Both the position numbers and the translations under genes were made by a program. The notes beneath the pieces were generated by a model. That model was not told where the DNA came from, made no database searches, and saw nothing but the letters and a program-made list of their open reading frames with translations. From Thermotoga caldifontis AZM44c09 (lineage in GTDB: Bacteria; Thermotogota; Thermotogae; Thermotogales; DSM-5069): a stretch of 64,000 nucleotides of DNA. Shown piece by piece: positions 56,268 through 61,137 of the stretch (positions are counted from its first letter, which is position 1; every line of letters starts with the position of its first letter). The stretch is from contig NZ_AP014509.1 in assembly GCF_000828655.1 (NCBI RefSeq), positions 806,001 through 870,000 of the forward strand, in the 5' to 3' direction.

Positions 56268-56894
56268 TCAAGCCCTGGCGATGCAGTAGGCGACGATTTT
56301 CTGTGCGCCCGCCTCAAGTAACAGTCTCGCACATTCGTTCATGGTGGCACCCGTGGTGTACACATCGTCTATCAGGGCTATCACGCCTTCTGGCTTTCCC
56401 TTCAGTCTGAAAGCACCACGAACGCTCTCTTTCCTCTGCTGTCTCGTTAAGCCTCTCTTCGTCGATGAGGCTGTCGATTCGATCAGGGAAGCGCACTCTA
56501 AGTGGATAGATCTGCCGACAATCTTCGCAATCGTTCCCATGGTGTCGTACCCTCTCTCTTCGAGAGCCCTGAAACTGGAGGGAACCCAGGTCAGACGGTC
56601 GCAGGGGATTTTGTACCTCTCCATCGTAGCTATCAACATCTTCGCGAGGATTCTGCGCAGTCTCCAGTGGCCTTCGTTCTTGTAGGCTAAGATGGCCTTC
56701 CTCAGTTTCGAATCGTACCTACCGTAGAAATGAACCTCGCACCATTTCGTTTTTTCAACCAGTGGTATCGGCCCCTGCAAAAGTTCGTGTTCGCACTCGT
56801 CACAGATGACGGAGAACGGTGCTATCGCTCTGCCACACAGAACACAACTGTTTGGAAAGATCGTTCCGAGTAACAGCTCGAGACTCTTCCTCAT
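56268..56894 (-). CDS. comF: ComF family phosphoribosyltransferase-like protein
   Basis: A 208-residue ComFC-type protein: an N-terminal zinc finger (CVLCGRAIAPFSVICDEC) and a PRTase fold ending in the PRPP loop VIALIDDVYTTGATMNECARLL. Family members support DNA uptake. ATG 56894 overlaps the preceding stop (ATGA); the longer open frame upstream lies over that gene. Followed by the chemoreceptor after 12 bases. Confidence 0.9.
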   Translation of the reverse strand: MRKSLELLLGTIFPNSCVLCGRAIAPFSVICDECEHELLQGPIPLVEKTKWCEVHFYGRYDSKLRKAILAYKNEGHWRLRRILAKMLIATMERYKIPCDRLTWVPSSFRALEERGYDTMGTIAKIVGRSIHLECASLIESTASSTKRGLTRQQRKESVRGAFRLKGKPEGVIALIDDVYTTGATMNECARLLLEAGAQKIVAYCIARA

Positions 56895-57505
56895 ATCCAA
56901 TTCCTTTTGAGTTGTTCGGGATCGACCGCGAACAGATCGCACAGGACTCTGATCACGCTCTCGTCGTACTTCTGACAGGTCAGAAAGGCTTTGACACACA
57001 GTAACCTACGTTTCTGAAGTTCGACGTCACCGCATCTGTCTATGGATTCTATCACTGCGTCGTAATCTTCCGGATCGCACAGCGTCACAACGTTCCTGTA
57101 GTTCTTCGCGGCCGCCCTCAACAGTGCAACACCACCGACGTCTATACTCTTCAGTATTCTTTCTTCATCGAGGCTGTCGTCGAGCTGGAAGGGCCTCAGA
57201 TTGACCGCAACGAGGTCGAAAGGCTCGATGTTCATTTCTTTCAAAAGTCGAAGATAGTCTTCTTCGAACAAATTCATCAGGACCGCGGCGAATATCTTCG
57301 GATGGATCGTTTTCACGTTTCCCTGAAGCATTTCTGAAAAGCCTGTTATCTCACTGATTTCTTTGGCGTTCACTCCGCACGAGCGGAGGTACGCAGCCGT
57401 GCCGGAAGTCGCGAAGATCTCAACTTTCCGCTCACTCAAAGCCTTCGCGAATTCGGCGACCCTTCTCTTGTCCCAGACACTGATCAACGCCCTCTTGATG
57501 TTCAC
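56891..57505 (-). CDS. Stand-alone IMP-cyclohydrolase-like (PurH N-terminal) domain
   Basis: A 204-residue protein matching only the MGS-like cyclohydrolase half of bifunctional PurH. It keeps SVWDK (9-13), TSGTA (33-37), TGFSEM, VKTIHP (64-69) and IDVGGVALLRAAAKN (121-135), but the phosphate-binding GRVKTLHP reads GNVKTIHP, GGIL reads AAVL and NLYPF reads NLRPF. No AICAR transformylase follows. It may be a true cyclohydrolase split off from its partner or a repurposed domain. GTG start. Confidence 0.8.
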   Translation of the reverse strand: MNIKRALISVWDKRRVAEFAKALSERKVEIFATSGTAAYLRSCGVNAKEISEITGFSEMLQGNVKTIHPKIFAAVLMNLFEEDYLRLLKEMNIEPFDLVAVNLRPFQLDDSLDEERILKSIDVGGVALLRAAAKNYRNVVTLCDPEDYDAVIESIDRCGDVELQKRRLLCVKAFLTCQKYDESVIRVLCDLFAVDPEQLKRNWI

Positions 57506-57592: not shown

Positions 57593-58804
57593 TCAGTCTT
57601 TCTTTTCCGGGATCAGGAGGTTGGCGATGATCCCAACCATCGCCGCGAGACTGAGACCCTTGAATTCGACGTGTCCAACCTTCAGTGTGGCTCCACCGAT
57701 ACCGACGGTGAGAATCAGGGAGGCTACGAGGAGATTCTTTGGCTTCGAGAAGTCCACCTGTGCGTTGATCAAGGTCCTTATACCCACCGAGGCGATCATT
57801 CCGAACAGGATCAAACTGATGCCGCCTATGACAGGGGTTGGAATCGTGCGGAGAACTGCTCCAAATTTGGATAGAAAAGCTACCAGCATCGCCAAGAAGG
57901 CCGCACCCCTCAACACTCTCGGATCATAAACCCCCGTGAGCGCGAGTACACCGGTGTTTTCACTGTAAGTCGTGTTTGCAGGACCACCGAGCAAGCCTGC
58001 CAGCGAGGTGGCGAGTCCGTCACCGATCAAAGTCCTGTGAAGCCCAGGTTTTTCGAAAAAGTTCCTGCCAACAACGGCTCCATTCGTTGTGATATCACCG
58101 ATGTGTTCCATCACTGTTGCGATCGATACGGGAGCTATCGTTGCTATGGCCGACCAGCTGAACTTTGGAAGCATGAACTTTGGCACACTCAACCAGCTGC
58201 TCTGCTGGATGGGTGAAAGATCGACCAGGCCCAGTGGCAGGGATACAGCGTAACCAGCGAGCACACCGAACAGCACAGGTATCATGCTCCAGAAGCCTTT
58301 CAGCAGGACGGAGGTGAGTATGACCGTGACGACGACCACCATCGCCACAAACCAGTTCTGGCTCGCCATCTGGATCGCCACGGGACTGAGGGTTAAGCCT
58401 ATGACGACGATCATGGGACCGGTCACGACGGGTGGAAACAGCCTGTTAACTTTCTCGATGCCCACCAGCCACACCAGCAATGCGAAGAGCAAGTAGACTA
58501 AACCGGCAGCGAATATTCCACCGGTGGCGTAAGCCAGATCATTCATTTGTTCCTTCACCATGATCACAGGTGCGATGAAGGCGAAGCTTGAACCGAGGAA
58601 CACTGGAACGATACCACCTGTAATGGTATGAAACAGCAGCGTTCCAGCACCCGCCGTGAAGAGTGCGACGAGCGGATCAAGACCGGTCAACAATGGGACG
58701 AGTACCGTTGCGCCGAACATGGCTACGAAATGCTGGAGGGAGAGTAAGAAAAACTTGACGCCACGCACTTGCTGGTGGGCCACAGTGAGGGAAGTGTCAA
58801 CCAT
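57593..58804 (-). CDS. uraA: Uracil/xanthine permease family (uracil permease)
   Basis: A 403-residue NCS2 permease with about 14 helices. Family signatures are QHFVAMFGATVLVPLLTGLDP, the GGPANTTYSENTGVLALTGVYDP segment and the GVIGGISLILFGMIASVGIR-like stretch (PVIGGISLILFGMIASVGIR). It imports uracil with protons. ATG 58804 follows AAGGAGGT; the longer open frame is leader. A PyrR-type hairpin in the leader supports pyrimidine control and hence uracil as substrate. Confidence 0.92.
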   Translation of the reverse strand: MVDTSLTVAHQQVRGVKFFLLSLQHFVAMFGATVLVPLLTGLDPLVALFTAGAGTLLFHTITGGIVPVFLGSSFAFIAPVIMVKEQMNDLAYATGGIFAAGLVYLLFALLVWLVGIEKVNRLFPPVVTGPMIVVIGLTLSPVAIQMASQNWFVAMVVVVTVILTSVLLKGFWSMIPVLFGVLAGYAVSLPLGLVDLSPIQQSSWLSVPKFMLPKFSWSAIATIAPVSIATVMEHIGDITTNGAVVGRNFFEKPGLHRTLIGDGLATSLAGLLGGPANTTYSENTGVLALTGVYDPRVLRGAAFLAMLVAFLSKFGAVLRTIPTPVIGGISLILFGMIASVGIRTLINAQVDFSKPKNLLVASLILTVGIGGATLKVGHVEFKGLSLAAMVGIIANLLIPEKKD

Positions 58805-58818
58805 GATCTGACCTCCTT

Positions 58819-58956: not shown

Positions 58957-59003
58957 TGTTCACTGTAGGATGTTCGACGAAAAACTTCAAGGGGGGAACA
59001 GGG

Positions 59004-60056
59004 ATGATGAAAAAGGTTTATTCAGTGGTGGTTTTGAGCTTCGCGGTATTGTTCTACGCACAGATCACGATCATCGACGACGGCTGGGTCAGATTGAGTG
59101 TACTCGACAACAAGTTCGCTCAGTATCCATACCCAACAGACTTCGTCATCGAAATCCTGGCGCTCGATCGCAGTATGCCCGTGGAGGTTTCCTATCTGAT
59201 GATGGATGGTAGTGGAACACCCGGGCAGCCTTCCACCAACTTCGTCATGAAAGGTTCGAACTTCAATCCTCCCTGGGATGGCAGCTGCTTCTTCAAAACC
59301 GAAGTTGGTGGCTGGGCTCAAGCTGAATTTGCCGCGAATCCAAAGTATTTACCTTTACCGCACTATCGGACCTGCCTGCTCTTACTCGCCAGATATGAGA
59401 ACATCTACGCTGTGTTTCTGAGGGAAAACGACGGACAGGTTGGATACACGCTTCTGAAAGGTGGTTCGTTCAGCAGCTTTGAGATTCCTAAGGTTGCGAG
59501 GATCGAGCTTCAGGTCAACGAGTTCGTGGTCACTTCGCTGGGCCAGCCGGTTGAGGTGGGTATGTGGGTTGAAGGCAGATACACCCACGACGAAGTCGGT
59601 GGCTGGGCCGCTCCAAGTTACGCTGCGAAGACGAAGAGGTACAGAGTCCCGCACTACGAAATGTTCATGATGATGCTGGGTCGCTACGACAAACTCGCAC
59701 TGATCATCGGAAAAGAGAACGATGGACGGCTCGGTGTGATCGTGTTCCCAAAATCTACGAGCTGGTCAAACCCGATCGAGGTGCCTGGATTCTGCAGGAC
59801 CGTGGCCCGGGGAACTCGACTCACCGTTGCGGCCCTGTCAGACAGCCCCGTGGAAATCACCCACTTCGCGTTCGACAACACGTGCTGGCAGTGGGAAGTT
59901 GGGGGATGGGCATTGCCCGAATACGCACCGAAGCAGCAAACTTTCACGCTGAAACACTACACACCGGGTTTGATCGTGGTCAACAGGTACCAGACCATGG
60001 ACCTGTTTGGCTACAACGAGAACGACGGTCAAACGGGAGTCATACAGATCAAATGA
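59004..60056 (+). CDS. Secreted protein with three EVGGW...ENDG repeats, function unknown
   Basis: A 350-residue protein with a signal peptide (KKVYSVVVLSFAVLFYAQ) and three ~100-residue repeats. Each carries PVEV/PVEI, then EVGGWA (100, 197, 298), xYA or EFA, a hydrophobic HY (120, 217, 318), RY (130, 227, 328) and ENDGxxG (141, 238, 339). A stretch of beta-type sequence lies between. The ATG at 59004 or 59007 follows AAGGGGGGAA; an open extension upstream is unlikely. It stands alone between convergent and divergent neighbours. I know no family for it; a surface binding role is a guess. Confidence 0.85.
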   Translation: MMKKVYSVVVLSFAVLFYAQITIIDDGWVRLSVLDNKFAQYPYPTDFVIEILALDRSMPVEVSYLMMDGSGTPGQPSTNFVMKGSNFNPPWDGSCFFKTEVGGWAQAEFAANPKYLPLPHYRTCLLLLARYENIYAVFLRENDGQVGYTLLKGGSFSSFEIPKVARIELQVNEFVVTSLGQPVEVGMWVEGRYTHDEVGGWAAPSYAAKTKRYRVPHYEMFMMMLGRYDKLALIIGKENDGRLGVIVFPKSTSWSNPIEVPGFCRTVARGTRLTVAALSDSPVEITHFAFDNTCWQWEVGGWALPEYAPKQQTFTLKHYTPGLIVVNRYQTMDLFGYNENDGQTGVIQIK

Positions 60057-60093: not shown

Positions 60094-61137
60094 TCACTGA
60101 GGAACTGATCGAGTGTGTTCGATGAGCTTGATCAGTTCCTCTACGATCTTTTCTCGCGGAACGGTCTTTACGATCGTTCCGGATTTGAATATGACTGCTC
60201 CATTTTTAGTACCAGCAACACCTACATCGGCGTGTCTTCCCTCACCGATTCCGTTGACCACACAGCCCATCACTGCGACTGTGAGATCTGTTTTTTCCAC
60301 GATGGGTTCGATCGATCTGGCGATCTGTTCCACATCTATTTCACACCTGGCACACGTGGGACACGCGATCACCTGGCCGAACTTTCTCAGACCGATCGAG
60401 GCGAGGATCTTCCGTGCCACGATCACTTCTTTGATCGGATCCCCCGCGATGGAAACTCTTATCGTGTTACCTATTCCTTTGAGCAACAGGTGCCCTATAG
60501 CGATGGCAGACTTTATGATCGCCGTTTCACCGACCCCAGCCTCGGTCAGTCCGATGTGCAAGGGATAATCCACTTTCGAGGCAACGTACTCGTTGGCTTT
60601 GATGGTTTCAAGAACGTCCGTACTCTTGACCGAGACAACGATGTCGTAGAAGCCGAACTTCTCGAGCAGCCGCACTTCGTAGAGTGCCGACTCGGCCAGT
60701 GCCGTGATCCGATCGTACTTCTGTTCGAAATCTTTCCTCAACGAGCCACTGTTCGCCCCGACCCTGATCGGCACCGAATACTCTCTCGCCACCTCGACGA
60801 GTTCCTTCACTTTCCAGTCCTGACCTATGTTGCCAGGATTTATTCGAACCTTGTCTGCCCCATTCTTGATCGCTTCTATAGCGAGACGATGATCGTAATG
60901 AACGTCCGCCACGATCGGAACGTTCAGATCGAGAACTTCCTTGATCTTCCTTATGGCTCTTGCACTTTCAAAGTCTGCCACGGCGACCCTCACTATCTCA
61001 CAACCCGCGGCGGCCAGTTCCCTGATCTGTCGGACGGTCGCATCCACATCGACGGTTTTCGTGTTCGTCATGGACTGGATCGAAACTGGATAGCCTTGCC
61101 CAATGAAGACGTTACCCACACGCACGATCCTGCTCAT
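60094..61137 (-). CDS. ispG: 4-hydroxy-3-methylbut-2-enyl-diphosphate synthase IspG
   Basis: IspG (347 residues) converts MEcPP to HMBPP in the MEP isoprenoid pathway using a [4Fe-4S] cluster. Cluster cysteines are seen in [11 protein letters not shown] and [11 protein letters not shown]. The TIM-barrel part has [15 protein letters not shown] and [13 protein letters not shown] 61137 overlaps the rseP stop (ATGA). Together with dxr two genes upstream this is a small MEP cluster. Confidence 0.96.
60099..60141. repeat. 12-bp perfect inverted repeat at the 3' end of ispG
   Basis: GAGGAACTGATC (60099-60110) and GATCAGTTCCTC (60130-60141) are perfect complements around a 19-base loop; four more pairs with wobble extend the stem. 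It lies within the last codons of ispG, 42 bases from the convergent secreted-repeat gene. On the - strand AAATTTT follows at a distance. A terminator or mRNA-end protector serving both genes is inferred. Confidence 0.6.

Follow-up and report, generated by a model that had tools for sequence, protein, structure and literature searches.

Tandem Ig-like domains often act as spacers, and the number of such spacer repeats is usually variable. It has been reported that the majority of predicted Firmicutes proteins in which a known stalk domain occurs contain no known adhesive domain (PMC9210967). Like the fibrillar adhesins considered in that study (PMC9210967), the Bacillota homologues of the protein family described here pair Ig-like repeats with a conserved extracellular module. 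Unlike them, these homologues lack a known adhesive domain, and the Thermotogota version consists of the module alone, without a stalk or an anchor. With regard to fold, the model of a single unit of this module resembles Ig/FN3-like domains, such as fn3, DUF3244 and the C-terminal domains of type 9 secretion (about 70 residues, 2-3 A, Z 5-8), but the units show no sequence match to the Ig/FN3-like Pfam families, carry their own signature (EVGGW-HY-RY-ENDG) and are predicted to have an extra eighth strand past the ENDG turn. The PLipase_C_C domain (PF05506) at the C-terminus of bacterial phospholipase C is also similar in fold to the whole-module model (8yk5, Z 7.6; 9gy2, Z 6.4) and to the unit model (8yk5, Z 6.6), whereas the module has neither an attached catalytic domain nor a PF05506 match. 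Membership of this family was rejected, as none of the units matched it in the Pfam scan and the genome contains no PF05506 copy. Finally, the beta-propeller lectins (NF052348; RSL, 4csd) share a short local similarity near GGW/NGW, but the module falls far under the curated cut-off of that family and is predicted to form a sandwich rather than a propeller.

The gene analysed here is located in a window of 64,000 nucleotides from Thermotoga caldifontis AZM44c09, and the features of the locus are listed in Table 1. Translation begins at an ATG codon, and the N-terminus of the encoded protein shows MMKK followed by a hydrophobic stretch with a mean Kyte-Doolittle hydropathy of 2.3 across aa 5-18, in agreement with the export signal proposed in the initial annotation. 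No lipobox Cys was found when the N-terminus was inspected for one. Thus, the protein is probably exported via a Sec-like signal peptide. The gene is monocistronic, as its earlier description as a solitary locus implied, and promoter and terminator scans gave no signal above chance. Comparison of three pairs with relatives yielded low dN/dS values (0.12-0.15), and the gene is under purifying selection.

Table 1. Features of the module gene and its surroundings (positions in the window; aa, residues of the encoded protein)
Feature	Coordinates	Strand	Basis
CDS, 350-aa putatively exported protein with three homologous units	59004..60056	+	ORF; dN/dS; orthologues in 7 other genomes
Shine-Dalgarno-like AGGGGGG, 7 nt before ATG	58990..58996	+	seen in sequence
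Putative Sec signal peptide, aa 1-19 (MMKK plus hydrophobic stretch; cleavage site guessed, between ...LFYA and QITI)	59004..59060	+	hydropathy
Unit 1 (aa 19-158): EVGGW at aa 100, HY 120, RY 130, ENDG 141	59058..59477	+	unit alignment, HMMs, model strands
Insertion specific to unit 1 (about aa 68-93, TP..PS...W), low-confidence loop	59205..59282	+	unit alignment; pLDDT 43-59
Unit 2 (aa 160-256): EVGGW at aa 197, HY 217, RY 227, ENDG 238	59481..59771	+	unit alignment, HMMs, single-unit model
Unit 3 (aa 257-350): EVGGW at aa 298, HY 318, RY 328, ENDG 339	59772..60053	+	unit alignment, HMMs, Ig/FN3-like match in whole model
Downstream neighbour ispG (convergent), in dxr-rseP-ispG cluster, outside the module; marks the fixed site	60094..61137	-	same position in all Thermotogota loci examined
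Upstream neighbour (divergent), xanthine/uracil permease family, outside the module	57593..58810	-	Pfam PF00860

The proposal that the protein consists of three homologous repeats was well supported by comparison of the units with each other. Unit-versus-unit Smith-Waterman scores of 109-124 were obtained, whereas the scores of 2000 shuffles each averaged 24-26 and never exceeded 56. Moreover, when unit HMMs trained on relatives only, with the window copy and its closest relative left out, were run on the window protein, the remaining two units were detected at i-E values of 9e-9 to 3e-14, while the best of 999 shuffled proteins reached an E-value of 0.03; the three units are therefore regarded as homologous. 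HY, RY and ENDG lie at exactly +20, +30 and +41 from EVGGW in all three units, and the starts of EVGGW reproduce the spacings of 97 and 101 residues given previously. The near-constant spacing of the motifs, also part of the initial annotation, holds for these four motifs but not for the distance from PVE (aa 59, 182 and 282) to EVGGW, which amounts to 41 residues in unit 1 against 15-16 in the other two. Similarly, a unit length of about 100 residues is correct for units 2 and 3 but not for unit 1, which spans about 135-140 aa because of an insertion of approximately 26 residues between PVEV and EVGGW.

Across 30 aligned units, positions V24, E25, W29, G41, W42, Y59, R68, Y69, N80 and D81 are invariant, corresponding to VE, a Trp, GW, the Tyr of HY, RY and the ND of the motifs. 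The invariance of charged and aromatic residues across two phyla, in a protein that is small, exported and stand-alone, would suit an extracellular enzyme or enzyme inhibitor in which the conserved E, H, R, Y, N and D act as catalytic or inhibitory residues. On the other hand, each of the three units contains the same residues, an unusual pattern for a catalytic site, none of the family searches matched an enzyme, and in the most divergent copy HY is gone from unit 1 and RY from unit 3, so that such a function appears decidedly unlikely. Still, it counts against the binding role preferred below that an active site or a buried network might equally account for the invariant E, H, R, N and D.

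Searches against known families agreed with the earlier statement that the protein belongs to no recognisable sequence family. The window protein had no match in Pfam, none of the Pfam Ig-like or fn3 models matched any of 12 whole modules and 30 units at E-values up to 10, and sequence and profile searches of the PDB with the module and its units returned nothing significant. The sole NCBIfam match was NF052348 (beta_propeller_lectin), with 16.5 bits and an E-value of 0.003 against a curated cut-off of 200 bits, and it was present in three of 12 family members; the only PDB profile match of the whole module was 4csd, a fucose-binding propeller lectin, at an E-value of 3.7. Both matches would be in line with a six-bladed beta-propeller lectin related to PLL or RSL/AAL, in which each unit of about 100 residues forms two blades. 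However, apart from the low score of the NCBIfam match, half-unit comparisons revealed no repeat within the units (z 0.3, 0.9 and -1.1), where the four-stranded blades of a closed propeller would recur every 45-50 residues, and for both confident models the fold matches listed comprise Ig/FN3-like chains and no propellers. Such kinship is thus very improbable, and the propeller lectin was ruled out as a candidate by the models and the missing repeats within units.

No match that stands up was found among phage records and viral contigs, and a phage origin of the module gene was rejected for this reason. Three family members showed weak matches to phrog_3985 (79 aa, function unannotated) across EVGGW-ENDG, the best at an E-value of 8e-6; these include L011:5001-6032 (E 8e-6) and L005:1501-2496 (E 0.004). 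The window protein did not match phrog_3985, and a tblastn search for the phage protein behind the match found none. In addition, neither a plasmid search for the module nor a comparison of its protein with a defence library (PADLOC) gave a match, and a literature search found no paper on an EVGGW-HY-RY-ENDG family. As judged by these comparisons, none of the libraries searched (Pfam and NCBIfam) describes the family.

Structure prediction with AlphaFold generated confident models of the whole module (12 sequences; pLDDT 87.8, pTM 0.87) and of a single unit (30 units; pLDDT 87.8, pTM 0.79), both of which contain about eight strands per unit and a short helical turn behind GGWA. VIA-align matched the unit model to Ig/FN3-like sandwiches with Z up to 8.3 over about 70 residues at 2-3 A, and the whole model to chains of this kind with Z up to 7.6; since the background range stated by the alignment tool includes Z values of about 8, the assignment of each unit to an eight-stranded Ig/FN3-like beta-sandwich is likely rather than proven. 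Foldseek returned chains of the same kind, with single-unit E-values all above 0.03. The fold matches stop near unit residue 83, and the ENDG turn and the eighth strand therefore look like additions to the common core. The pTM of the whole model suggests a rigid, fixed arrangement of the three units. Judging from strand order, the two ends of the sandwich would carry different motifs, GGW and RY on one side and HY and ENDG opposite, so that EVGGW/RY and HY/ENDG need not form one site; each unit may accordingly have two sites, or else the motifs may serve as contacts from unit to unit.

The module gene was detected in eight of 103 Thermotogota genomes, which belong to two genera only. The orthologues in the other seven genomes of the family show 54-88% identity, and the L009 homologue is 73% identical to the window protein. 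In every Thermotogota locus examined, the module gene is convergent with ispG, beside the dxr-rseP-ispG cluster, while the upstream neighbours vary. The permease gene upstream is not kept as a neighbour in other genera.

Several other features of these loci were observed. In the second genus, an OsmC-like gene lies between ispG and the module gene or the empty site (L053:7666-8112, L054:8186-8632 and L058:7549-7995), and it is missing from that position in the genus of the window. One genome of the second genus is without the module gene, and at the empty site (L058) uraA adjoins the OsmC-like gene. Within the window, a 204-aa purH-like gene (56891-57505, minus strand) encodes only an MGS domain and positions 1-58 of the AICARFT/IMPCHase model, which has 311; it thus resembles an IMP cyclohydrolase half that stands alone, with the AICAR transformylase missing.

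Outside Thermotogota, the module was found in six of 398 sampled Bacillota genomes (two search centres counted in), with 43-50% identity, and additional searches across whole classes identified no further genome with it. One of the six genomes (L023) retains a remnant with the module start only, and in another (G170) the copy is broken off by contig ends. In the complete Bacillota proteins, the module occurs among Kre9_KNH Ig-like domains or BNR/sortilin-type repeats and is followed in most cases by a Cu_amine_oxidN1 domain; Big_7 is also present, and enzyme domains are not. The Kre9_KNH repeats and other Ig-like domains of these homologues may represent a stalk, and none of them occurs in the window protein. 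The initial annotation of an unfamiliar stand-alone family holds in that no sequence family could be recognised, but not with respect to its isolation, as the module is also found in Bacillota inside large surface proteins.

Additional details were noted in individual Bacillota genomes. The L023 remnant, an ORF of 134 aa (L023:1312-1716, minus strand), covers no more than the beginning of unit 1, and a zinc-ribbon membrane protein gene adjoins both this remnant and the intact module gene of L045. In a 1000-aa homologue (L044:4672-7674), long stretches to which no domain was assigned separate the Kre9-like domains from the module, and unit 1 no longer contains HY, nor unit 3 RY. A DUF4412/DUF2092-like lipoprotein is encoded near the module gene in two genomes (L045:32-946, L024:280-1026 and L026:2-514), and a functional link between the two is possible.

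Every complete copy found in the two phyla has exactly three units. When 36 units were placed in a tree, U1, U2 and U3 each formed one clade that contains both phyla (support 94/90, 100/98 and 100/99), and the Thermotogota and Bacillota copies are parted by a well-supported branch (100/100). Because the clades of the three units span both phyla, the triplication is older than the split of the copies, and the units are not interchanged; on this phylogenetic evidence, the triplication is old and fixed. The distribution is so patchy that an early horizontal transfer of the module between Thermotogota and Bacillota, in either direction, is likely.

This fixed number also bears on whether the protein might be a structural or assembly component of the envelope, namely a rigid spacer or scaffold whose packing core and contacts between units are formed by the motifs and which has no diffusible or polymer ligand. 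Such a role would accord with the common use of tandem Ig-like domains, with the fixed arrangement indicated by the pTM of 0.87, and with the conserved residues, which by strand order would lie in loops at opposite sandwich ends, where inter-domain contacts would sit. Unlike the usual spacer repeats, however, complete copies always have three non-interchangeable units, and in Bacillota other Ig-like repeats already serve as spacer. A purely structural role therefore seems somewhat unlikely.

The reading that we prefer, with confidence about evenly balanced, is that the protein is an undescribed triple Ig-like module with a non-catalytic binding function in the envelope, which stands alone in Pseudothermotoga and is built into long surface proteins in Bacillota. 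We favour a rigid binding module of three units because the count is fixed and Ig-like surface domains lie nearby in Bacillota. The invariant polar and aromatic residues, kept even in diverged units, are in favour of binding, whereas the stand-alone copies without any anchor speak against it. In Bacillota, the module would be held out on a long surface protein, preceded by Kre9/KNH Ig-like repeats and usually followed by a copper-amine-oxidase-N domain; in Pseudothermotoga, it may act free in the periplasm or toga space or outside the cell. The putative ligand could be a repetitive polymer (a glycan or cell-wall polymer) or a partner protein, bound through three alike but individually specialised units; binding, ligand type and site of action are all inferred. 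A more specific and unlikely version is a ring of pseudo-threefold symmetry, closed by the three specialised Ig-like units and with equivalent binding sites at their interfaces, which would form a trivalent envelope or adhesion module shared horizontally by thermophilic Thermotogota and Bacillota.

This is a discovery of an ordinary kind, namely a new extracellular Ig-like module and not a new kind of system. It adds a domain family that neither Pfam nor NCBIfam contains. This family has a clear signature and a fixed architecture of three units, and it is patchily distributed over two phyla. For structure determination and ligand screening, the small stand-alone protein of a thermophile is a convenient target, and its structure or ligand would also explain part of the large, unexplained surface proteins of Bacillota.
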